Below, in pieces: positions 16,299 through 30,998 of a DNA stretch of 64,000 nucleotides. Under the pieces are notes generated by a model. The model worked only from the letters and a program-made list of their open reading frames with translations. It was not told the origin of the DNA and ran no database searches. A program made the translations under genes and the position numbers. Source of the stretch: an uncultured Roseicyclus sp. (GTDB taxonomy: Bacteria > Pseudomonadota > Alphaproteobacteria > Rhodobacterales > Rhodobacteraceae); assembly GCA_947500415.1 (NCBI GenBank), contig CANMRT010000004.1, positions 372,001 through 436,000 of the forward strand, read 5' to 3'. How positions within the stretch are numbered: position 1 is the first letter of the stretch; the number at the start of each line of letters is the position of its first letter.

Positions 16299-17549
16299 TC
16301 ACTCCCCCAACGCGGCCCGCTCCGCCCCAAGCCCGCGATACCAATTCACGATCAGCGCGCGTTCTTCTTCGGACATCGCGGTGATGTTCCCCGGCGGCAT
16401 CGCGTGGCTCACGCCCGAATGCAGGTAAATCGACCGCGCATTGATCGCAATCTGCGCGTCATCATCCAACCGCACCCCGCGTGGGGCCCAGTTCAGCCCC
16501 GGCCAGACAGGTTCGGCGTTGTGGCACATCGAACAGCGCCCCAGCACCGTATTGCGCACATCCTCGAACCCGGCGGAGGCCACGACATACTCAAGGTTCT
16601 CCGGAACGACGACCTCGGCCTCATAATCGTAATCCTGATACATCGGGATCGAAGACAACCACATGATGATGATGAAAATCACCGCGCTCGCGCCCCACGT
16701 CCAATGAGGCTGTCCTTTGCCTGCGTGCATCGAGTTGAAGTAATGCCGGATCAGCACCCCCAAAAGAAACACCAACGACGCGATGATCCACGCGTATTCC
16801 GTGCCAAATGACAGCGGATAGTGGTTCGACAGCATCAGGAAGATGACCGGCAGCGTCAGGTAGTTGTTGTGGGTGGACCGCAGCTTGGCGATCTTGCCGT
16901 ATTTTGCATCCGGCATTCGACCCTCTTTCAGATCTTTCACCACGATTCTTTGGTTCGGCATGATGATGAAGAACACATTCGCTGTCATGATCGTGGCGGT
17001 GAACGCCCCCAGATGCAGCAGCGCCGCGCGCCCCGTGAACACCTGATTATAGCCCCAGGCCATGATCACAAGGATTACGAAAAGCAGGAGCATCAGCGCC
17101 GTGGGATGCTCCCCCAGCGGGCTCTTGCACAGAAAATCATACAGCACCCAGCCAATCGCCATGGATCCGCCCGAGATCAGGATGGCCTGAAACGTGCTCA
17201 ACTCGATCTTGTCGTAGTCGATCAGGAACATTTCTGCCCCGCCCCAATAGACAAGCATCAACAGCGCGGCACCGGACAGCCAAGTCCAGTAACTCTGCCA
17301 TTTGTGCCATGTCAGATGCTCGGGCAACCGGGCCGGGGCGACGTTGTATTTCACGGTGTTGTAGAACCCGCCGCCATGCACCTCCCATTCCTCGCCGGTG
17401 GCGTCTTCGGGCAGGTCATCTGCGGGCTTCAGCATCAGATCGAGCGCGATGAAGTAGAACGATGCGCCGATCCACGCCATCGCGGTGATGACATGCAGCC
17501 ACCGCACCGCGAACGCCAGCCAATCTGTGAATACGGCAAGATCGTACAT
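16299..17549 (-). CDS. puuD: Cytochrome c-linked urate hydroxylase/oxidase PuuD
   Basis: N-terminal TM urate oxidase domain (MYDLAVFTDWLAFAVRWLHVITAMAWIGASFYFIALD) and a C-terminal c-type haem motif, GRCSMCHNAEP. Confidence 0.9.
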   Translation of the reverse strand: MYDLAVFTDWLAFAVRWLHVITAMAWIGASFYFIALDLMLKPADDLPEDATGEEWEVHGGGFYNTVKYNVAPARLPEHLTWHKWQSYWTWLSGAALLMLVYWGGAEMFLIDYDKIELSTFQAILISGGSMAIGWVLYDFLCKSPLGEHPTALMLLLFVILVIMAWGYNQVFTGRAALLHLGAFTATIMTANVFFIIMPNQRIVVKDLKEGRMPDAKYGKIAKLRSTHNNYLTLPVIFLMLSNHYPLSFGTEYAWIIASLVFLLGVLIRHYFNSMHAGKGQPHWTWGASAVIFIIIMWLSSIPMYQDYDYEAEVVVPENLEYVVASAGFEDVRNTVLGRCSMCHNAEPVWPGLNWAPRGVRLDDDAQIAINARSIYLHSGVSHAMPPGNITAMSEEERALIVNWYRGLGAERAALGE

Positions 17550-17603
17550 GGCGCGCGTCCCTCTGACAGTATGGGCGCACGCTATACGGTCGCCGGTCTA
17601 TAT

Positions 17604-17620
17604 GATAATTCCTGATTATC
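17604..17620. promoter_or_regulatory. Palindrome in the puuD/LysR divergent intergenic region
   Basis: GATAAT-TCCTG-ATTATC inverted repeat, fitting a LysR-type operator. Confidence 0.5.
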
Positions 17621-17651
17621 CGGATCAGCTTCAAGAAAAACCGAATAATCG

Positions 17652-18554
17652 ATGACCAACATCAATAATATCCGCATGTTCGCCCGCGTCTATGAGCTTG
17701 AGAACATGTCCGCCGCCGCCAGGGATCTGCGCGTCTCGGCGGCCGTGGCGTCCAGCCGGATAGGGGAGTTGGAAAAGCAGCTTGGCATTCGTTTGTTCAC
17801 CCGTACCACGCGCTCCATCCAGCCGACGGAACAGGGGCGCATCTTCTATCCCAAGGCGCTGAAGGTGCTGGAAGCGTTGGAAGAGGCTGAAGCCGCCGTT
17901 CACGAGATCACGCTGAACCCGCGCGGCTCGATCTTCGCCTCCGCGCCCCTTGGCATCGGCCGCCGGTTGATCGCGCCGAACGTCGCGCTTTTCCGTGAAA
18001 AGTATCCCGAAGTGCACACCCGCTTACGCTTGTCTGACCGCGCATTGGATGTGACGGGGGAGGGGTTGGATGTCGCCTTCATCGTCGGCAACCCGCCGGA
18101 TTCGGGACTGATGATGAAACTCATCGCCACGTTTCAACGGGTGCTTTGTGCGGCGCCGGAATATATCAAGCGCAAGGGTCGTCCGGTCTATGGCTCTGAC
18201 CTCATCACGCAGGATCATGATTGCCTTCTCTTGCGCTTTCCCGGCTCCACTGAGTTCCGCTGGTCTCTGCATACGACCGACGGCTACCAGAATTTTGACG
18301 TGACCGGCCCTTACGCCTGCGACGATGGCGACGTGTTAACCCAATGGGCGCTCGACGGGCGCGGGATCATCAACAAACCGGCCTTCGAGGTTCAGGAGGA
18401 TCTGAACAGTGGTGCCCTGGTTCCGGTCTGTCAGAAGTCCCCGCCGCCCGACGCGCAACTGGCCGTACTCTTTCCGCATCGCAAGAACCAGGACCCCAAA
18501 AGCCGGTTCTTTATCGAGTTCATGTCGGAAAAACTGAAGGCGGCCTTCGCTTAG
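17652..18554 (+). CDS. LysR-family transcriptional regulator
   Basis: N-terminal wHTH: NNIRMFARVYELENMSAAARDLRVSAAVASSRIGELEKQLGIRLFTRTTRSIQPTEQG. Confidence 0.92.
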   Translation: MTNINNIRMFARVYELENMSAAARDLRVSAAVASSRIGELEKQLGIRLFTRTTRSIQPTEQGRIFYPKALKVLEALEEAEAAVHEITLNPRGSIFASAPLGIGRRLIAPNVALFREKYPEVHTRLRLSDRALDVTGEGLDVAFIVGNPPDSGLMMKLIATFQRVLCAAPEYIKRKGRPVYGSDLITQDHDCLLLRFPGSTEFRWSLHTTDGYQNFDVTGPYACDDGDVLTQWALDGRGIINKPAFEVQEDLNSGALVPVCQKSPPPDAQLAVLFPHRKNQDPKSRFFIEFMSEKLKAAFA

Positions 18555-18895
18555 CTGCCGCGATAGGTGCTGTAGCTGAACGGGCTCAGTAGCAGGGGCA
18601 CATGGTAGTGATCATTTTCTGTCATGCCAAAGCGTAGTGGGATGACATCCAAAAAGTCACTCGGCGCGCCGCAGGCACGCAGGTAATCGCCCGCATGAAA
18701 GACCAACTCGAAGATGCCGGTCTCAAACTGATCCGGCGGCAGTATCGGGCTATCGGTGCGGCCATCCGCGTTCGTTACTGTCTCCGACAGGTTCACACGC
18801 GTGTCGCCCTCCAGTTTGAACAGCTCAATCCGAAGGCCAGGCGCAGGGCTTCCCTTGGCCGTATCCAGAACATGTGTCGTCAGATAGCCGGTCAT
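18551..18895 (-). CDS. uraH: 5-hydroxyisourate hydrolase
   Basis: MTGYLTTHVLDTAKGSPAPGLRIELFKL and C-terminal YHVPLLLSPFSYSTYRGS (transthyretin-like YRGS tail). Confidence 0.95.
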   Translation of the reverse strand: MTGYLTTHVLDTAKGSPAPGLRIELFKLEGDTRVNLSETVTNADGRTDSPILPPDQFETGIFELVFHAGDYLRACGAPSDFLDVIPLRFGMTENDHYHVPLLLSPFSYSTYRGS

Positions 18896-18972
18896 CAAAC
18901 GTCTCCCGTCAGTGATTGAACCCTCATCTGCGGCACATCGATTTACTTGGAAATGCAAGAACCCCTGAAACA

Positions 18973-18993
18973 CTTTCAAGAATTTCTTGAAAG
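18973..18993. promoter_or_regulatory. Perfect 21-bp palindrome between uraH and the ureidoglycine hydrolase-like gene
   Basis: CTTTCAAGAA-T-TTCTTGAAAG: 10-bp perfect inverted repeat, 1-nt centre, in the divergent intergenic region. Confidence 0.7.
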
Positions 18994-19109
18994 ACCAATT
19001 CTTAATCGTGGTTTATGCGAAGAATGGGGTAGGAGGGTCTCGTGCAGCAACTTGTTCAGGATATGTCGCCGTGGCACCTGTCACGCATCCCATATCGAAG
19101 GCTTTCTCC

Positions 19110-19937
19110 ATGACCACGCCCGCCCGCTACGCCTTCCCTCCCGGTGGTATGCCGGACCACAGCGCCGATCCCGTCGGCACGGCCGTTTTCAAAACTGCCT
19201 ACGCGGTCATTCCTGCCGACACGCAACGAGACATCGTCACCAGCTTTCTGCCCGGTTGGACGGACCATCGCGCCTGGATCCTCGCGCGGCCGATGACCGG
19301 TTTCGCCGAAACCTTCGCGCAATACGCGGTTGAGCTTCAGCCCGGTGGCGGCTCTCTCACACCAGAATCGGACCCGCAGGCGCAAGCGGCACTTTTCGTT
19401 GCCAAAGGCACTCTGCGCCTGACCATCGGGGCGGAAACCCATGACCTTCGCGCAGGCTCGTTCGCTTATCTGCCCGCAGGCGCGCCGTGGCAGCTTTGGA
19501 ACACGGGCAGCGACGTGGCCGGGTTCCATTGGATCCGCAAAGCCTACGTGCCGGTGGCAGGCGCGATGACGCCTGAACCCCTCGTTTGTCACGAGACAGA
19601 CATCACCCCGGTCGGCATGCCCGGCGCTGAGGACAGCTGGGCCACCCAGCGGTTCTTCGACCCCCTCGACACGGGCTACGACTTCCATATCAACATCGTG
19701 AACTTCGCCCCAGGCGGCCGCATCCCCTTTGCCGAGACCCACGTGATGGAACACGGGCTCTACGTTTTGCAGGGCACCGCACGCTACCTGCTGAACGAGG
19801 ATTGGGTTGAGGTCGGTCCCGGCGATTTCATGTGGCTGCGCGCCTTCTGCCCGCAAGCTTGCGTCGCCACCGGGTCCGAAGATTTTCGTTATCTGCTCTA
19901 CAAAGACGTCAACAGACACGTTGGGCTGACGCTATGA
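19110..19937 (+). CDS. (S)-ureidoglycine aminohydrolase-type bicupin
   Basis: MTTPARYAFPPGGMPDHSADPVGTAVFKTAYAVIPADTQRDIVTSFLPGWTDHRAWILARPMTGFAETFAQYAVELQPGGGS; two cupin domains; in the urate cluster. Confidence 0.8.
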   Translation: MTTPARYAFPPGGMPDHSADPVGTAVFKTAYAVIPADTQRDIVTSFLPGWTDHRAWILARPMTGFAETFAQYAVELQPGGGSLTPESDPQAQAALFVAKGTLRLTIGAETHDLRAGSFAYLPAGAPWQLWNTGSDVAGFHWIRKAYVPVAGAMTPEPLVCHETDITPVGMPGAEDSWATQRFFDPLDTGYDFHINIVNFAPGGRIPFAETHVMEHGLYVLQGTARYLLNEDWVEVGPGDFMWLRAFCPQACVATGSEDFRYLLYKDVNRHVGLTL

Positions 19938-20078
19938 AGATAAGGCGTAAGCCTAATAATGCGGCACGGGACAACCGCAACCCGGACCAGGACGACCCCG
20001 CCAGTTGAAACGGCTTGCAGGGCACTCCCCACGGTTCCGAGGATTACAAGAATAACGGTCTTTTGGAGGGACAAAACC

Positions 20079-21494
20079 ATGGCTGACACTTCAATCGGAA
20101 CGCCGGAGCAACTCCGCGATCCAAACTACACCCCACCGCTGGTCAAAGCGGTCCCCTTGGGCGTTCAGCATGTCATGGCCATGTTCGTCTCGAACGTAAC
20201 ACCGGCGATCATCGTCTGTGGCGCGGCGGGTTTCGGGTTCGGCTCCAACAGCCCCGATTTCCCGCAGATGATCTACATGATTCAGATGTCGATGTTCTTT
20301 GCGGGCCTCGCCACTCTGATCCAGACCATTGGCCTTGGCCCCGTGGGTGCGAAGCTACCCATCGTGCAGGGCACGTCATTCGCCTTCATCCCAATCATGA
20401 TCCCGCTGGTTCAGAACCAAGGTGTCGAAGCGATCGCCGTCCTGATGGGTGGCGTCGTCGTCGGCGGCCTGTTCCACGCGGTCCTCGGCCTCTTCATCGG
20501 TAAGATCCGCTTCGCCCTGCCACCGCTTGTGACCGGCCTTGTCGTCACGATGATCGGTCTGGCCCTTGTGAAGGTCGGCATCCAATACGCCGCCGGCGGC
20601 GTGCCCGCGATTGGGACCGAGGAATACGGCTCGCTTCAGAACTGGTCGGTCGCCTTGATCGTGATCTTCGTCACGCTCGGCTTGAAGTTCTTCGCCCGTG
20701 GGATGCTGTCTGTCTCTGCCGTTCTGATCGGCCTGCTGGTCGGCTATGCGGTCGCCTATTTCATGGGCATGGTGAACTTCGGCAACGTGGGGAGCGCCGC
20801 CACCGTGGCGCTTCCCAATCCGTTCCACTTCGGGATCGAATTCACGACCGCCGCCATCATTGGCTTCTGCCTGATGTCCTTCGTCTCTGCGGTGGAAACC
20901 GTGGGCGACGTCTCAGGCATCACCAAAGGGGGCGCTGGCCGTGAAGCGACGGACAAAGAGATTCAGGGCGCTACCTTCGCAGATGGTCTCGGCACCGCTG
21001 TTTCGGGCCTGTTCGGCGCACTGCCCAACACCTCGTTTAGCCAGAACGTCGGCCTGATCGCCATGACCGGCGTGATGAGCCGCCATGTCGTGACCATCGG
21101 CGCGATCTTCCTGATCCTCTGCGGGCTCATCCCCAAAGTCGGTGCCGTCATCGCGACAGTCCCGATTGAGGTTCTGGGCGGCGGCGTCATTGTCATGTTC
21201 GGCATGGTTGTGGCCGCCGGTGTCTCCATGCTGTCGGACGTCAACTGGAACCGACGCAACATGGTGATCTTCGCGATTGCCCTGTCGTTGGGCCTGGGTC
21301 TGCAGCTCGAACCGGGCGCGCTTCAGTACCTGCCGGATACGCTGAAGGTTCTGGCAACCTCGGGCATCCTGCCCGCGGCTCTGATCGCCATCGTGCTGAA
21401 CCTGATCCTGCCAGAAGACCTGGCCGCGGAAGCGACGGAAGAGGTTTCGGGTGGCATGGCCGGTCACGGTGAAGGCAGCCTTCCCAAAGACTGA
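20079..21494 (+). CDS. NCS2-family uracil/xanthine/urate permease
   Basis: VPLGVQHVMAMFVSNVTPAIIV; FVSAVETVGDVSGITKGGAGREATDKEIQGATFADGLGTAVSGLFGALPNTSFSQNVGLIAMTGV, the NCS2 QNxG signature. Confidence 0.93.
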   Translation: MADTSIGTPEQLRDPNYTPPLVKAVPLGVQHVMAMFVSNVTPAIIVCGAAGFGFGSNSPDFPQMIYMIQMSMFFAGLATLIQTIGLGPVGAKLPIVQGTSFAFIPIMIPLVQNQGVEAIAVLMGGVVVGGLFHAVLGLFIGKIRFALPPLVTGLVVTMIGLALVKVGIQYAAGGVPAIGTEEYGSLQNWSVALIVIFVTLGLKFFARGMLSVSAVLIGLLVGYAVAYFMGMVNFGNVGSAATVALPNPFHFGIEFTTAAIIGFCLMSFVSAVETVGDVSGITKGGAGREATDKEIQGATFADGLGTAVSGLFGALPNTSFSQNVGLIAMTGVMSRHVVTIGAIFLILCGLIPKVGAVIATVPIEVLGGGVIVMFGMVVAAGVSMLSDVNWNRRNMVIFAIALSLGLGLQLEPGALQYLPDTLKVLATSGILPAALIAIVLNLILPEDLAAEATEEVSGGMAGHGEGSLPKD

Positions 21495-21516
21495 TCCAAA
21501 CCACTGCATACGACAC

Positions 21517-21547
21517 AAAGCAGCCCCTGTTTTCGGGGGCTGCTTTT
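21517..21547 (+). terminator. Rho-independent terminator after the NCS2 permease
   Basis: AAAGCAGCCCC-TGTTTTCG-GGGGCTGCTTTT. Confidence 0.85.
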
Positions 21548-21563
21548 GGTTTAAGGACCCGAG

Positions 21564-22319
21564 ATGTTTGAGATCGCCATCCTGATCGCCGCTGCCTTTG
21601 GCGCGGGCGTGCTGAACACCATTGCAGGCGGCGGCACCTTCCTGACGTTCCCCGCGCTGGTTCTGGTCGGTATCCCGCCGGTCGCGGCGAATGCCACCAG
21701 CGCCGTGGCCGTCTTCCCCGGATACCTCGGTGGGGCAGTCGGCTTCCGGTCCGAGCTTGCGGTTTTCGACCGGCAGCGCATGGCGCGGCTTGGTGCGATT
21801 GCCTTGTTTGGCGCTGCCGTCGGCTCGGTGCTCCTGCTCATCTCCTCCAACGACGCTTTCTCGGTCGTCGTCCCGTTCCTGCTTCTGGCGGCCACGCTGA
21901 TCTTCCTGTTTGGCGACCGCATCCGCGCTTGGGCTAGCACCCATTCCAAAGGTGTGACCCCTGAGGGCGCCATTGGCCTATTTGTCGTGGCGATTTACGG
22001 CGGCTACTTCAATGGCGGCTTGGGCATCGTCCTGCTCGCCCTTTTTGCGCTTTGGGGCATGACGGACATCCACCAGATGAACGGCCTCAAATCGGGGCTC
22101 AGCTTTCTGGTGTCCTTCATTTCCGTGCTGATCTTCGCCGCAGCTGACCTCGTCGTCTGGCCACAAGCCGTGATGATGATGGTGGCAGCAACCATCGGCG
22201 GCTACGCAGGCGCGCCCCTTGCCCGAAAGCTTCCCAAACCCGTGGTGCGCAGCATCATCGGCATCGTTGGCTTCGGGATGAGCGCGGTGTTCTTCTGGCG
22301 GCTCGTCACCGGCGCTTGA
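21564..22319 (+). CDS. TauE/SafE-family membrane permease
   Basis: [52 protein letters not shown]. Confidence 0.9.
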
Positions 22320-22337: not shown

Positions 22338-22414
22338 TGGTCGGGCTGAGAGGATTCGAACCTCCGACCCCCTGCTCCCGAAGCAGGTGCGCTACCAGGC
22401 TGCGCCACAGCCCG
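22338..22414 (-). tRNA. tRNA-Pro(CGG)
   Basis: Reverse complement CGGGCTGTGGCGCAGCCTGGTAGCGCACCTGCTTCGGGAGCAGGGGGTCGGAGGTTCGAATCCTCTCAGCCCGACCA: acceptor CGGGCTG/CAGCCCG, anticodon loop TTCGGGA, GGTTCGAATCC T-arm, encoded CCA. Confidence 0.97.
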
Positions 22415-23842: not shown

Positions 23843-24307
23843 CTACTTGGCGAACCTGTGCAAAGCCTTTGCGGGGACGGAGAAGTGAACCTTCTCGGCG
23901 CGTGGTGCACCCAGGGCCTCATAGAATTTCAGGGCCTCGGGCTGAAAGCTGCCCCATTCCAACCGGATCGCACCGCTGTCTTCCGCCGTCTGCGCGAGGT
24001 CACGCATCAGGGCTTTGCCCGCCCCAAACCCGCGCGCCTCCGCCGTGACGTACAGTTCCTTGAGGTAGATCGCGATCCCGTCGCCCGCCGGATACACACG
24101 GGTCCACGTTGCAAACCCATTCGCGCGACCCTCGTGCCAGGCAATGCTCGCCGACAGCCCACGCGGCGCGGAAAGGTCCGCGATGATCTCGGCCTCAACC
24201 TCAGGCATCGACGGCCCAACGCCGTAGTGAACCAGACAATCGCGGTAGAGCGTCAGGAACGCCTCCCGATCCTCCGCCGCAAAGGCCCGGACCGTGACCT
24301 CACTCAC
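23843..24307 (-). CDS. GNAT-family N-acetyltransferase
   Basis: [37 protein letters not shown] acetyl-CoA binding motif. Confidence 0.9.
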
Positions 24308-25404
24308 GCCGCCAGTTTGGCGATGATCGCGTCGCCCATTTCGGACGTGCTGATCGGGGTGCCGCCATCGGGGCCCATCAAATCCGCTGTCCGCGCGCCG
24401 TCCGCCAAAACGGACTCAACCGCCTGCTCCAACCGCGTCGCCTCATCGCCCAGATCGAACGAATACCGCAGCGCCATCGCAAAGCTCAGGATACAGGCAA
24501 TAGGGTTCGCCTTGCCTTGCCCCGTGATATCCGGCGCGGACCCGTGGACCGGCTCATACAGCGCCTTGGGCCGCCCATTCTCCATCGGCGCTCCAAGCGA
24601 GGCCGAGGGCAGCATCCCCAACGACCCCGTCAACATCGCCGCGCAATCGCTCAGGATATCCCCAAACAGGTTGTCTGTCAGGATCACGTCAAACTGCTTC
24701 GGCGCCCGCACCAACTGCATCGCACCATTATCCGCGTACATATGCGACAGCTCCACATCGCCATATTCCGCCGCGTGCACCTCGTTCACCACATCCCGCC
24801 ACAGGATGCCGCTCTCCATCACGTTGGCCTTCTCCATGGAACAGACCTTGTTGTTCCTCCGCCGCGCCAGCTCAAACGCAGACCGCGCCGCCCGCGCAAT
24901 CTCGCTCTCCGTATAGCGCTGCGTGTTCACGCCCACGCGCTCATTGCCTTCCTTGTGGATGCCCCGCGGCTCACCGAAATACACGCCCGAGGTCAGCTCC
25001 CGCAGGATCATGATGTCGAGGCCCGAGACGATCTCGCGCTTCAGCGACGAGAAATCTGCCAGCGCGTCAAAACACTGCGCCGGCCGCAAGTTTGCATAAA
25101 GGTCCATCTCTTTGCGCAACCGCAACAACCCCCGCTCCGGCTTCACGGAGAAATCCAGATCGTCATAAGCCGGTCCACCGACAGCGCCGAGCAACACCGC
25201 ATCCACGCTTTGCGCCTGCGCCATCGTCTCGTCGGTCAGCGGCGTCCCATGGGCGTCATACGAGGCGCCGCCAACGAGCCCCTCCGACACCGTAAACCCG
25301 ATCCCCCGCGCTTGGCCGAACCAGTCAATCACCTTACGGACCTCAGCCATCACCTCGGGGCCAATCCCGTCACCGGGAAGGATAAGCAAGCTGCGGTCGG
25401 ACAT
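24304..25404 (-). CDS. leuB: 3-isopropylmalate dehydrogenase
   Basis: [77 protein letters not shown]. Confidence 0.97.
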
Positions 25405-25750
25405 GGGTGCGGTTCCTTTGTTGGTAAGTTGCGCACCGGGTATCTTGCACGTGCGGAAGGGTCAAGAAATCACGGGCCATCTATTGCAACTCTGAGATAC
25501 AGCTGTTGGGTTTCTCTTGGCGGTCGGCTGTCGAAAAGCGAGCATGTCGATGGTAACATGACTAATCGCTCATTAAGCTCAACCAAGTTTAAATTTGACC
25601 TGAACTTGATAGCCGTACTGTCAACAAGCCTCTCAAGACCTGCTTATTTGTCTACGACATCTCGTGTCCAACTGACGGTTTCCGACAAGGAAAAAGGGCG
25701 CTTTGCGTCCGGATCGAATAGAGTATTTCGGCAAGGTGGTAAAACTCGAT

Positions 25751-26776
25751 TTAGAACGCGCGTCGGAGGGCTTCTCGTGTGTTGCTCGAGACGTCATCGT
25801 TTCCGCCCGAAAAACCAAGGAAGAAGTCTATTAGATTTGGCTGCAATTTCTTTGAAAAGACCTCCCATTGTCTATCATCATTGAGAATTTGCAGTTTCTG
25901 GTACACTTGATGAAACCTCAGATCCTCGTCTTTAAGAAATTCAAACAGACGCTTTATTGCTGATAGTGCTAGTTCAAAGGCTTCCCTTTTGCCTTGGAAC
26001 GTACTTATCCGTAATGGTACCTCGTTTGCAGCTACCCTTATTCTACTGACATCTTCGCATGTTCCAATTTCTTCATTTTGGTCCGATCTTTCCATTTTCT
26101 CGGAACTTATACAGATCAGCTGTTCCAACTCTCGAAGACCATTCTCCAATTTCTGAACGCAGACATCGGAAGCCCTACGGTTCTTCAATGTTGAATGTTC
26201 AAGTTGGAGGAGAACATCCACATACCAATCCAGATCGGATTGAACTCTTTCCACCAATACGACTGAATTGACTCCCTTTTGGCGTCCGACTAATTGAAGT
26301 AAATACCCGAAGCGACCTGCTGCTAGCATTTTCTTTCCCTGATTGATCGATTGCTCAAGATTAGCAAAGATCCGCTGCAGGTCGGCAAGTAGGCTCACCA
26401 TACTCGATGCCTCGATGCTTCTTGAGTAAAAATCGTAGCATTGGCTTAGCTCGTCGAGTACGGCATCCATCTTCGAGATCAAGTCAGGGCCAACATCATC
26501 TTCACTTGTCGTTTCTTGCTGCTCTGGAGCTTTATCGTCTGGTGTCACTTCTCCTTCTTCGAATTCTGCTTCTTGCTCGACCAAAATGAGATCACTCAAA
26601 TCCACACCGAGGGCTGCTGCCACATCCAGTGCGTTACTCTGGCTCACCGGCTGACCTTGCTCAATGCGCTGAAGAGTCGAAAGAGAGAAGTCGATGTCAC
26701 TGAGTGCAACGAATTCCTCCTGGGTGCAGTCCATTCCCTCGCGAAGTTTCTTTACTACCCCGCCGTTGAGTTTCAT
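25751..26776 (-). CDS. XRE-type HTH protein with long uncharacterised helical C-terminus
   Basis: MKLNGGVVKKLREGMDCTQEEFVALSDIDFSLSTLQRIEQGQPVSQSNALDVAAALGVDLSDLIL is HTH_3-like, followed by about 270 aa of no recognisable family; AT-richer than its surroundings. Confidence 0.75.
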   Translation of the reverse strand: MKLNGGVVKKLREGMDCTQEEFVALSDIDFSLSTLQRIEQGQPVSQSNALDVAAALGVDLSDLILVEQEAEFEEGEVTPDDKAPEQQETTSEDDVGPDLISKMDAVLDELSQCYDFYSRSIEASSMVSLLADLQRIFANLEQSINQGKKMLAAGRFGYLLQLVGRQKGVNSVVLVERVQSDLDWYVDVLLQLEHSTLKNRRASDVCVQKLENGLRELEQLICISSEKMERSDQNEEIGTCEDVSRIRVAANEVPLRISTFQGKREAFELALSAIKRLFEFLKDEDLRFHQVYQKLQILNDDRQWEVFSKKLQPNLIDFFLGFSGGNDDVSSNTREALRRAF

Positions 26777-26931
26777 TGAATTTTTCGGTCTTGGCACACC
26801 AGAAATCCCGGTTCTTGAAGGGTTTCTGAATGGTTGTTTTTGATCGGTCCTGCAAGTGCTGAGGTGTTCTTGCCGTGGAAGCAAACCGTCGAGAGCCCAT
26901 CTTGGTTCAATATCAATGACGGAGTAGAGGC

Positions 26932-27057
26932 ATGAGCAAGCTGTATGAACTGATTGAGAAGGCGGAGCTTACGATTTCCGCACGACAAGTCCACGCCAAG
27001 GGCATCGCGGTGTTCCTTTTGGTGGCCGCCATGCTTTTGGTCGTGGTTTTCGGCTAG
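26932..27057 (+). CDS. 41-aa single-TM microprotein (not in ORF track)
   Basis: ATG with GGAG upstream; MSKLYELIEKAELTISARQVHAKGIAVFLLVAAMLLVVVFG*; hydrophobic C-terminal helix; divergent from the XRE gene. Confidence 0.5.
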   Translation: MSKLYELIEKAELTISARQVHAKGIAVFLLVAAMLLVVVFG

Positions 27058-27176
27058 GTTTACCTTGCCGTGTCCGGGAATGCGTTCAAGGTAGAGCTGC
27101 TATCGCAGGCAACTAAATCCGGCCGTTGTTTACTGTGTTCTAATTTGGCGCACTTCCACGGCCTAACCCCTCACCC

Positions 27177-28064
27177 TCACCCACACACCCCACCAACCCC
27201 CTCCGCCAGCATCTCCCACACCGCCGCGACGCGCGGCTGATGCCGCAGCCGGTTATGCGCCGTCAGCCACACGGGCAGGCTCGGCAATTCCAACTCCGGC
27301 ATCACCTGCACCACGTCCGGTGATCGCTCGGCCACCACCCCCTGCCCGATGCCAATGCCGCACCCGGCGAGCACGAACTGCCAATAGGCCACCTGATCAT
27401 CGGTCGTCACCGTGAACCAGTTGCGCGTCACCAGCATCCCCATCTCGCGCATGGCCCTGATGATCCGATCATCGCGGTCATAGCCGACCATGCCGAAATC
27501 GCGCAGGTCGTCCACCGATGTCGGCATCCCGTGCGCCTCAACAAACGAACGGCTCGCATAAAGCCCCAAGGGCAAATCCCCCAGATGCCGTGTGACGGTA
27601 TCCAGTTGCGTGGGCCGATACATGCGCAGCGCGATGTCGGCCTCGTGGAACAGCAGGTTCTCGGTCGAATCCGTGGCCACCACGTCCAGCCGGATGCTCG
27701 GATACTCCGCCCTAATATCCGCCAAAATCGGCGGCAGGATATGCGTCGTCACAAAGACGGATGCTGTGACCCGCACCCGCCCCTCCAGCCCCGGCTGCTC
27801 CCCCGCCACCTTCAGCGAGGCACGCCGTAACGCATCGCGGATGTCCCGCGCCTCGGCGATCAGGCTTTCGCAGAACTCGCTGGGGGTGAAGCCGGTCTCA
27901 TCCCGCCAAAACAGGTAGTCCCCTGCAACCTCTTCGGCGGCGCGGATCAGGCGGCTGATGGTGGGCTGGCTGGTGCCCAGAACCTTCGCCGCCCCGGTCA
28001 TGGTGCCCTCTTCCGCCACCGCCAAAATGGCGCGCAGCATGGGCCAGTCAAAATCATGTGCCAT
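27177..28064 (-). CDS. LysR-family transcriptional regulator
   Basis: MAHDFDWPMLRAILAVAEEGTMTGAAKVLGTSQPTISRLIRAAEEVAGDYLFWR wHTH. Confidence 0.92.
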   Translation of the reverse strand: MAHDFDWPMLRAILAVAEEGTMTGAAKVLGTSQPTISRLIRAAEEVAGDYLFWRDETGFTPSEFCESLIAEARDIRDALRRASLKVAGEQPGLEGRVRVTASVFVTTHILPPILADIRAEYPSIRLDVVATDSTENLLFHEADIALRMYRPTQLDTVTRHLGDLPLGLYASRSFVEAHGMPTSVDDLRDFGMVGYDRDDRIIRAMREMGMLVTRNWFTVTTDDQVAYWQFVLAGCGIGIGQGVVAERSPDVVQVMPELELPSLPVWLTAHNRLRHQPRVAAVWEMLAEGVGGVCG

Positions 28065-28147: not shown

Positions 28148-29065
28148 ATGGAGAACCCCATGCCCAAAACCGCCCTCATCCTCGGCGCCACCGGCCGTTT
28201 TGGCCGCCACATGGCAGTCGCCCTGAACCGCCACGGCTGGACCGTCCGGAGCTTCAACCGCGCAAAGGACGACCTCGTCCAAGCCGCTCAGGGCGCGGAC
28301 CTGATCGTAAACGCCTGGAACCCGCCCTATTCCAAATGGGCCAACACGGTTCCGGGCCTCACCAAGCAGGTGATCGAAGCCGCCAAATCCTCCGGCGCCG
28401 CCGTCATGATCCCCGGAAACGTCTACGTCTTCGGCGAGGACATACCCGCGATCATCGGCCCCGACACCCCCCACCGCGCCACGAACCATCTCGGCCAAAT
28501 CCGGCGTCAGCTGGAAGATGCATACCGCGAGGCAGGCGTGAAAACCGTGATCCTGCGGGCAGGCGATTACATCGACACAGAAGCCTCTGGCAACTGGTTC
28601 GACCAGATCATCGCCGCCAAAATCGCCAAGGGAAAGCTCAGCTACCCCGGCCCCCTCGACCAGATGCACTGTTGGGCCTACCTGCCCGACCTCGCCGAAG
28701 CCGGCGCGCAGCTGGCCGGAAAGTTGGACGATTTACCTACGTTCAGCGATTTCATGTTTGAAGGTTACAATATGACCGGCGCGGACCTCGCCAAAGCCGT
28801 AGAGAAAGCAACGGGCAAAACGATCAAAGCGAAACAGATGTCATGGTTTCCGATCCAACTGGCGCGCCCCTTCTGGGCAGAGGCCAAACACTTGATCGAA
28901 ATGCGCTACCTTTGGCGACTTCCACATCAAGCAGATGGCTCGGCTTTGGCGAAGGTCTTGCCTGACTTTCCCCAAACGTCGCTGACGGATGCATTGCGAA
29001 CCGCCTGCGCACCGATGCTTCAGAATGCGATGTCCACCCAAACCAGCCGGTGGTCAGAAGCCTGA
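28148..29065 (+). CDS. NAD(P)-dependent epimerase/dehydratase-family (extended SDR-like) protein
   Basis: KTALILGATGRFGRHMAVALNRHGWTVRSFNR Rossmann motif. Confidence 0.85.
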   Translation: MENPMPKTALILGATGRFGRHMAVALNRHGWTVRSFNRAKDDLVQAAQGADLIVNAWNPPYSKWANTVPGLTKQVIEAAKSSGAAVMIPGNVYVFGEDIPAIIGPDTPHRATNHLGQIRRQLEDAYREAGVKTVILRAGDYIDTEASGNWFDQIIAAKIAKGKLSYPGPLDQMHCWAYLPDLAEAGAQLAGKLDDLPTFSDFMFEGYNMTGADLAKAVEKATGKTIKAKQMSWFPIQLARPFWAEAKHLIEMRYLWRLPHQADGSALAKVLPDFPQTSLTDALRTACAPMLQNAMSTQTSRWSEA

Positions 29066-30165
29066 ACGACTGCTTCCGCCAGTGGCCCATCCTCAGGCCA
29101 GATTACTGCACTGCCTATCACCTCCAGCTCGGCGGCGGGCAGGATGTAGTCGACCCGCAAATCCCCCGGCGTCGGATCCTCCCAATCGGCAGTGGCACGT
29201 CCAAAGGCGCTTTCAGGAGTAGGGTCTTGCAGCGCGGGCAGCGACAGAAGCGCATGAAGCGCCTCGCGCCGCCCTTCCCCGCGCAGTGGGTCGAGGTTCA
29301 AAGTGCCGACATATGCAAAATGCTCTGCCTCGAAGGCCTCGCCGTCCGGGCTCCAACCCTCAAGATAAAGCTCCCAGAACCGCAACTCATCAGCATTGCG
29401 CAGGCCGTTACGATCCTCAGGCCCGTCAAAAACCGGAGCGGAAGCGTGGGAGGTGAGGATGTGAAACGAGCTCTCAGGCAGCAGGATTTCAACATCCCAA
29501 GCCGCAACCGAATGCAGCCGCAATATCGGCAACGCTGCCTCTGGCGTCACGCCTGCGGCGCTGTTGTCCGGTAAATCCTGCCACAGAAGCTCCGAGAAAT
29601 TCCGGACCTCCCCGATGGGATATCGCGACAGAAGGGCCATGCCGCCTGCGCCACTAAAGCGTCCGTAGCCATGAGCATCGCGAGCCCTATCCGTGCGGCC
29701 ATCGCCATCGAGGTCAAAGCCCGTCGGCCAGCCGGAGTTGGGACGCAGGCTGACATAGTGAGGGTAGGTCAACCCACGCTCATCCAGTGCATCAGCGAGG
29801 GCTGAAATCGTCGCGCCACCGGCATTGTAGTCGACGTCCTGCAACACGATGATGTCCGCATTTGCGGCCAGAATGACCTCAACCGTCGCAGCGGGAATTT
29901 CATCAAGCCGAAGGATGTCGCGCAGGATCACACCGGGGCCACGGCCTGAAAGCTCAGTGTGGAAAGTGGCCAGACGTAAGGTATCTGCCGCGGCCGCAAC
30001 ACTCCCGACGACAAGCGCAAAACATGCGATCAGGAGGGAACGGCAGCACCCGGTGCGTCGGTTTCGACGCTGGCGACCAGGCGCGAGCGACGGGCACGGA
30101 TCATCCGCGCAATCCGCAACATGGCCAGCCCGCGCATCACGAGGCTGAGGGGAAGGAACATCCAT
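29020..30165 (-). CDS. Endonuclease/exonuclease/phosphatase-family protein, probably exported (start uncertain)
   Basis: SLLIACFALVVGSVAAAADTLRLATFHTELSGRGPG...ANADIIVLQDVDYN...HILTSHASAPVFDGPEDRNG. The ORF opens at 30267; the start could be anywhere from there down to about 30033. Confidence 0.7.
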   Translation of the reverse strand: MDVPSPQPRDARAGHVADCADDPCPSLAPGRQRRNRRTGCCRSLLIACFALVVGSVAAAADTLRLATFHTELSGRGPGVILRDILRLDEIPAATVEVILAANADIIVLQDVDYNAGGATISALADALDERGLTYPHYVSLRPNSGWPTGFDLDGDGRTDRARDAHGYGRFSGAGGMALLSRYPIGEVRNFSELLWQDLPDNSAAGVTPEAALPILRLHSVAAWDVEILLPESSFHILTSHASAPVFDGPEDRNGLRNADELRFWELYLEGWSPDGEAFEAEHFAYVGTLNLDPLRGEGRREALHALLSLPALQDPTPESAFGRATADWEDPTPGDLRVDYILPAAELEVIGSAVIWPEDGPLAEAVVQASDHRLVWVDIAF

Positions 30166-30998
30166 ATCGTCACCGCCCATACCATCGTCTGTGTCGACCC
30201 CAGCACAGGCACCTGCATCTGATTGGCCGCCATGACGGCAACCACCGGGATGATGAATGGACTGCAAATTCCAAAGATAACGTTAACGCGGGCGTCGCGG
30301 ACCAACCTTTTGATAACGTCTCCACCGGCAGTTGGGTCAAACGTGGGTAGATTTACCCAGACGTTGAAGGCCGTACCACGGTTGGGCCAGTTCCCCGTGC
30401 GCAGCAGTGCCGAGAACAAAAACAGCGACAGGATAGTGATCAGCACGGCAAAGCCAGCCATCGCCTGAACCTGCGTAGCGATGATGGGGTCAACACCTTC
30501 GGGGAGGTGATCCAGCACAAGGCGAAGCGGGCTGAACGTGAAATCCAAAGCGCGACCAACAAGGAACCCAAGCGCGGTGATGACAACGGACAGGGTCGAG
30601 CCTTCGCGTTCTGCACCCATGATGACGGACAGACCAAACAGCATCAGGAACAGCGCGATCACACGAATGCGGTTGAATGGGGGGGCGTCGCGAAACTCGA
30701 TCAGGCCGGGAAACTTGGCGCCGTATTCAAAGGCAGTCACAAGCGCGAAGGCCAATGCAACCAGTGTGATGACTTGCGCGCTTTCCGCCGTTGCGCCCGG
30801 CGCAAGCAGGGACGGCGTCAGAATGACGACGACGATCATTATCGCCCGCACAATTGCGCCGACCAATCTGGTGAACACCGTTACTACCTCAATCTGATGT
30901 CGGTTCATGCCGACACCTTGTTCTGCCTTTTGGCCCGCTTCGTGTTGGGATCCGTCCAATTTCATGTGAATTGGTAAGGATGCCCCTATTGCAGGCAC
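30030..30998 (-). CDS. Multi-spanning membrane protein of unknown function
   Basis: Several TM segments (AIVRAIMIVVVILTPSLLAPGA, VITLVALAFALVTAFEYG, VIALFLMLFGLSVIMG); no family recognised. Start may be internal (MNRHQIEVV). Confidence 0.65.
   Translation of the reverse strand: MPAIGASLPIHMKLDGSQHEAGQKAEQGVGMNRHQIEVVTVFTRLVGAIVRAIMIVVVILTPSLLAPGATAESAQVITLVALAFALVTAFEYGAKFPGLIEFRDAPPFNRIRVIALFLMLFGLSVIMGAEREGSTLSVVITALGFLVGRALDFTFSPLRLVLDHLPEGVDPIIATQVQAMAGFAVLITILSLFLFSALLRTGNWPNRGTAFNVWVNLPTFDPTAGGDVIKRLVRDARVNVIFGICSPFIIPVVAVMAANQMQVPVLGSTQTMVWAVTIWMFLPLSLVMRGLAMLRIARMIRARRSRLVASVETDAPGAAVPS

Follow-up and report, generated by a model that had tools for sequence, protein, structure and literature searches.

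A probable integrase-less hotspot of gene turnover between leuB and a LysR-type regulator gene in Roseicyclus

Integrase-less recombination hotspots are intervals in which variable cargo lies between two fixed genes, with no mobility gene and with elevated exchange and tree conflict in the flanks (Oliveira et al. 2017, PMC5635113). The leuB-LysR interval studied here resembles them in being located between two conserved genes and holding different genes in each genome, in the lack of an integrase, transposase or tRNA at the slot, and in the raised exchange and conflicting trees of its flanks. In contrast to the published hotspots, it displays a sharp between-species peak within one genus, is very small (one or two genes) and has a constant junction at the LysR stop codon. 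We assigned it to this class by the pattern of its cargo and not by the gene-number threshold of Oliveira et al. The kind is thus known; as a site the hotspot is new as far as our searches go, and a search of the literature on hotspots at leuB in this family of bacteria found nothing relevant. The core defence hotspots of Pseudomonas aeruginosa (PMC10250203) likewise combine conserved flanking genes with variable contents, and one cargo of the leuB slot is a DUF4238 protein, a family for which anti-phage activity has been reported. Save for this relation, the leuB slot holds no recognised defence system.

The window, i.e. the whole stretch of 64 kb that was analysed, contains an AT-rich island between leuB and LysR, which the preliminary description had claimed and a composition scan bore out: the G+C content drops to 43-50% at about 25.5-27.0 kb compared with ~62% in the surroundings. 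The segment of ~1.7 kb between the two genes (46-54% G+C) contains an XRE-type HTH gene and a 41-aa ORF with a transmembrane (TM) stretch. Its left flank is leuB (24304..25404, minus strand), encoding 3-isopropylmalate dehydrogenase (Pfam Iso_dh, E 3.7e-135), with a leuB upstream region common to the congeners (25405..25478) that holds TCAAGAAA and is 85% identical to that of G405 over its first 65 bp (blastn). The right flank encodes a LysR-type regulator (27177..28064, minus strand; Pfam LysR_substrate and HTH_1) whose last codons read GVGGVCG* (asterisk, stop). The only tRNA within the window, tRNA-Pro (22338-22414), lies 3 kb from the slot, beyond leuB.

The genus set comprised 13 genomes with one genome per species, namely the present genome (G000) and 12 congeners. 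All 13 possess leuB, and in ten of them it is adjacent to LysR. Half of these ten (G399, G400, G403, G404 and G406) have an empty slot with a leuB-LysR gap of 75-84 bp; the other five (G000, G405, G381, G398 and G407) have a filled slot with a gap of 814-1782 bp. The cargo of G000 consists of the XRE gene and the putative microprotein. In G405 it is a DUF4238 protein (Pfam E 3.1e-13) that occurs in no other genome of the genus. The G381 cargo looks like a secreted protein, with an apparent signal for secretion, whereas G398 has a membrane protein and G407 a 165-aa ORF with no family named. In blastn comparisons of the gaps the five cargos were mutually unrelated, save for the leuB leader and, in the four other than G000, pieces of a repeat; the variable cargo segment of the present genome (25479..27176) is without similarity to the segments of the other filled species. 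Neither an integrase nor a transposase was found among the main cargo ORFs of the five gaps, and the G000 gap holds no integrase-like ORF.

Both flanking genes show a peak of identity between filled species at fourfold sites. The leuB gene of G000 shares 74, 74 and 72% and its LysR gene 82, 70 and 71% of these sites with G405, G381 and G398, respectively, compared with a background mean of 48-49% (sd 5-7) in ~40 other window genes, a baseline of automatically picked ORFs in the 64-kb window from which five doubtful or very short frames were removed. The corresponding z values range from 3.7 to 5.0. In the comparison of G000 with the empty G406, leuB (47) and LysR (49) are at background level. 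Identity peaks close to the island and declines to background level in the distal parts of the neighbouring genes on both sides. Split into quarters, leuB of G405 yields 59-76-90-70 towards the island, its SDR gene yields 72-66-43-45 away from the island, and LysR of G407 yields 71-69-46-42, being raised only in the island-proximal half. The single-gene trees (FastTree) conflict with each other: for an outer gene (29020-30267), G407 and G406 are close sisters and are joined by G381 (0.972), whereas in the LysR tree G407 groups with the filled species (0.999) and in the leuB tree G381 groups with G000, G405 and G398 (1.000). The identity peak and the tree conflict fit raised homologous recombination in both flanking genes.

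With a probability of roughly 0.78, we consider the locus to be an integrase-less gene-turnover hotspot that would be refilled via homologous recombination in its flanking genes. For the recombination route and the order of events we infer that an ancestral insertion close to the LysR 3' end would have supplied the new tail of this gene and opened the gap between leuB and LysR; afterwards, cargo-bearing DNA may have passed from one congeneric species to another through homologous recombination in the leuB and LysR flanks, with the outcome that each filled species would carry its own cargo. The slot would then be a compact case of between-species cargo replacement with a footprint visible at synonymous sites. 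It can be seen both empty and filled, has a right junction that is fixed, and is a place to look for small accessory genes of new kinds.

The XRE-type HTH protein (25751..26776, minus strand) has 341 amino acid residues. It consists of an HTH at residues 8-63 (Pfam HTH_3, E 2.3e-6; 28 bits with a curated cutoff of 23), an acidic linker (~67-95) and a predicted helical C-terminal region. The N-terminal HTH is shared with XRE-family (HTH_3) regulators, among them phage repressors and the control proteins of restriction-modification systems; in contrast to these, the remaining ~270 aa matched no family in the libraries searched, as had been expected from the first reading of the sequence. Because of the HTH domain, we infer a role as DNA-binding regulator, which, like every biochemical function ascribed here to the cargo, is a prediction from sequence. 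The low GC3 (0.468) and codon adaptation index (CAI, 0.48), combined with a clear codon-position periodicity (GC1 0.60, GC2 0.33), indicate that the gene is probably foreign and was acquired horizontally from a lower-GC source. Searches with pattern or first-look filters, which may miss very divergent relatives, found no relative over the full length in 396 further family genomes, the 12 congeners, plasmids and phages, nor in order and phylum samples, viral contigs and a GTDB contig scan. A PDB search returned HTH matches only, all marginal, and a single-sequence AlphaFold model (pLDDT 40.6) was kept out of the fold searches. Several partial matches were rejected. Those to residues 160-240 at the order level were weak, fell on a helical stretch of a ~400-aa protein, which we take to be TelA-like, and were attributed to chance. 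A phylum-level match to residues 217-329 (E 2.6e-6) was spurious, since it ran antisense to an ORF of 835 aa whose codon-position bias is that of a genuine gene. Two other phylum-level matches covered the HTH only.

Type I toxins and other bacterial membrane microproteins are small hydrophobic single-helix peptides. The product of the 41-aa ORF (26932..27057, plus strand), probably a single-helix membrane microprotein, resembles them in length and in its single hydrophobic helix (residues 3-40 in a structure model, pLDDT 86). This is a resemblance only; the peptide shows no sequence relation to them, and there is no Rfam match near the ORF. Both the ORF and the Shine-Dalgarno-like GGAG/GAGG upstream of it were recovered, and the earlier interpretation of the ORF as an unannotated TM microprotein is plausible. 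The codon-usage shift that the preliminary description had assigned to the whole island holds for the XRE gene (GC3 0.47 vs 0.74; CAI 0.48) but not for the 41-aa ORF, whose GC3 (0.738) equals the mean of the window's reference genes and whose CAI is 0.715.

The 41-aa ORF could also be a chance open frame. An ATG-initiated ORF of at least 41 aa arose in 68% of shuffles of the 400-bp intergenic stretch, and the ORF is not conserved in relatives. However, only 9% of the shuffles combined such an ORF with a TM-like stretch, and 1.5% with both a TM-like stretch and a Shine-Dalgarno-like motif. The host-matching codon usage is moreover limited to the reading frame itself, the other two frames of the same strand having CAI values of 0.427 and 0.452. 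Codon choice differed from composition-matched synonymous nulls (P<0.002): the CAI of the ORF was reached by 0 of 5000 synonymous recodings at local composition and by 0.16% at 60% G+C, and a single one of 70 out-of-frame ORFs inside known genes reached its codon match. Because of this host-like synonymous codon choice, length alone saying nothing, we judge the ORF to be probably coding and translated, and a chance frame to be rather unlikely. In searches with filters of the kind used for the XRE protein, which may miss very divergent relatives, the 396 other family genomes, the 12 congeners, plasmids and phages yielded no full-length relative of the microprotein, and the other four filled gaps showed no small TM ORF with a comparable hydrophobic stretch. 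G247 gave a match of 39% (E 0.09 per genome, 397 genomes searched) inside a longer frame at the end of a contig, which was dismissed as not significant. The best lead for a relative may be a 126-aa frame at a contig end (L079, 24-404), the N-terminus of which (LSKLFELVESASLSL...) resembles that of the microprotein (SKLYELIEKAELTI), a similarity that is not statistically significant.

The presence of a DUF4238 protein as G405 cargo in the same slot raises the question of whether the slot serves mainly as a hotspot of defence against phages, in which case the XRE gene, alone or together with the peptide, would be an unrecognised defence gene. One alternative content of the slot represents a family with reported anti-phage activity: a single DUF4238 protein conferred strong resistance against T7 (PMC9122126), and DUF4238 systems were found in Pseudomonas island hotspots (PMC12629846). 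Since a member of this family gave T7 resistance, the slot may have a role in defence. On the other hand, PADLOC matched the XRE protein only as a generic HTH control protein and returned no match for the other four cargos, and the G381 cargo looks secreted. Apart from the generic match, no PADLOC defence-system model matched the XRE protein or the other cargos. We regard a slot devoted mainly to defence as doubtful.

The XRE protein and the 41-aa membrane peptide may also form a functional pair, i.e. a regulator with a toxic or signalling peptide, which would move as a unit and would be compatible with a hotspot at this site. The two genes are divergent, share a 155-bp intergenic region and are both missing from the congeners; the small ORF has coding-like codon usage, and its peptide is a hydrophobic single helix. 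A weak inverted repeat between them (CAGAAATCC-N11-GGGTTTCTG; 26800..26828) could serve as operator, but is not significant and is expected by chance (P 0.15 in shuffles). Promoter and terminator scans at the locus gave results at chance level. Further arguments against a pair are that neither protein has a homologue in the searched genomes, hence no co-occurrence, and that codon adaptation is sharply unlike (CAI 0.715 vs 0.48). Because of this strong difference, there are hints that the XRE gene and the 41-aa ORF have different histories. A literature search for a pair of an XRE protein and a small membrane protein found nothing relevant. A functional pair appears unlikely to us, and cargo replacement at a hotspot describes the locus with better support.

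The junctions of the slot bear on a further alternative, according to which a site-specific or non-autonomous mobile element would use the slot as its target and insert at the 3' end of LysR. Among filled genomes, similarity ends no more than two or three nucleotides from the new LysR stop. The constant right junction of 23 nt (GTTGGTGGGGTGTGTGGGTGAGG; 27175..27197, minus strand), which comprises the LysR 3' end with the stop and 2 nt, occurs as one copy per filled genome with at most 2 mismatches and is absent from the other eight genomes of the genus. The LysR tail GVGGVCG* (GVGEVCG* in G407) is found in the five filled genomes only. In the empty genomes LysR ends with ...SPLLS* or similar, and TCAAGAAA, the complement of that end, therefore precedes the leuB leader there. 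TCAAGAAA still lies beside leuB in most filled genomes and is apparently the displaced original 3' end of LysR. A MITE- or REP-like repeat of ~174 bp (L058, 5222-5364) was observed at the leuB side of the filled slot in G405 and G381, and partly in G398 and G407; in G405 and G381 it has 21-bp inverted repeats (GCCCCGCCATCGACGGGCCTG...). Three features are consistent with such an element: all five filled species have the same right junction, no more than 2-3 nt from the LysR stop, the original LysR end has apparently moved to the leuB side, and the repeat carries inverted repeats. However, the repeat is missing from the G000 segment and the junction is single-copy per genome. Selection alone would favour a junction at the stop codon, because breakpoints inside LysR would be selected against, and the identity peak in the flanks is a prediction of homologous recombination. 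Insertion by an element of this kind seems quite improbable to us. We give very little credence to the proposal that the XRE protein and the divergent 41-aa peptide constitute a new two-gene defence/stress module, in which a regulator or sensor would control a membrane-active peptide, delivered via a cross-species slot at leuB; side-by-side orphan genes need not be a functional pair.

Next to the tRNA-Pro gene, a block at 16299-22319 encodes a urate oxidase (Urate_ox_N), a LysR protein, a HIU hydrolase/transthyretin, a double-cupin protein that is probably a ureidoglycine aminohydrolase, a xanthine/uracil permease and a TauE-type transporter (Pfam). Nothing matched the block in the equivalent regions of five congeners; it therefore seems to be another species-variable segment, a cassette for purine degradation. 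Two congeners, and only these, carry a second leuB-like gene with 63% identity (G407:C2:750572-751654 and G406:C2:948178-949263; L036 and L037).
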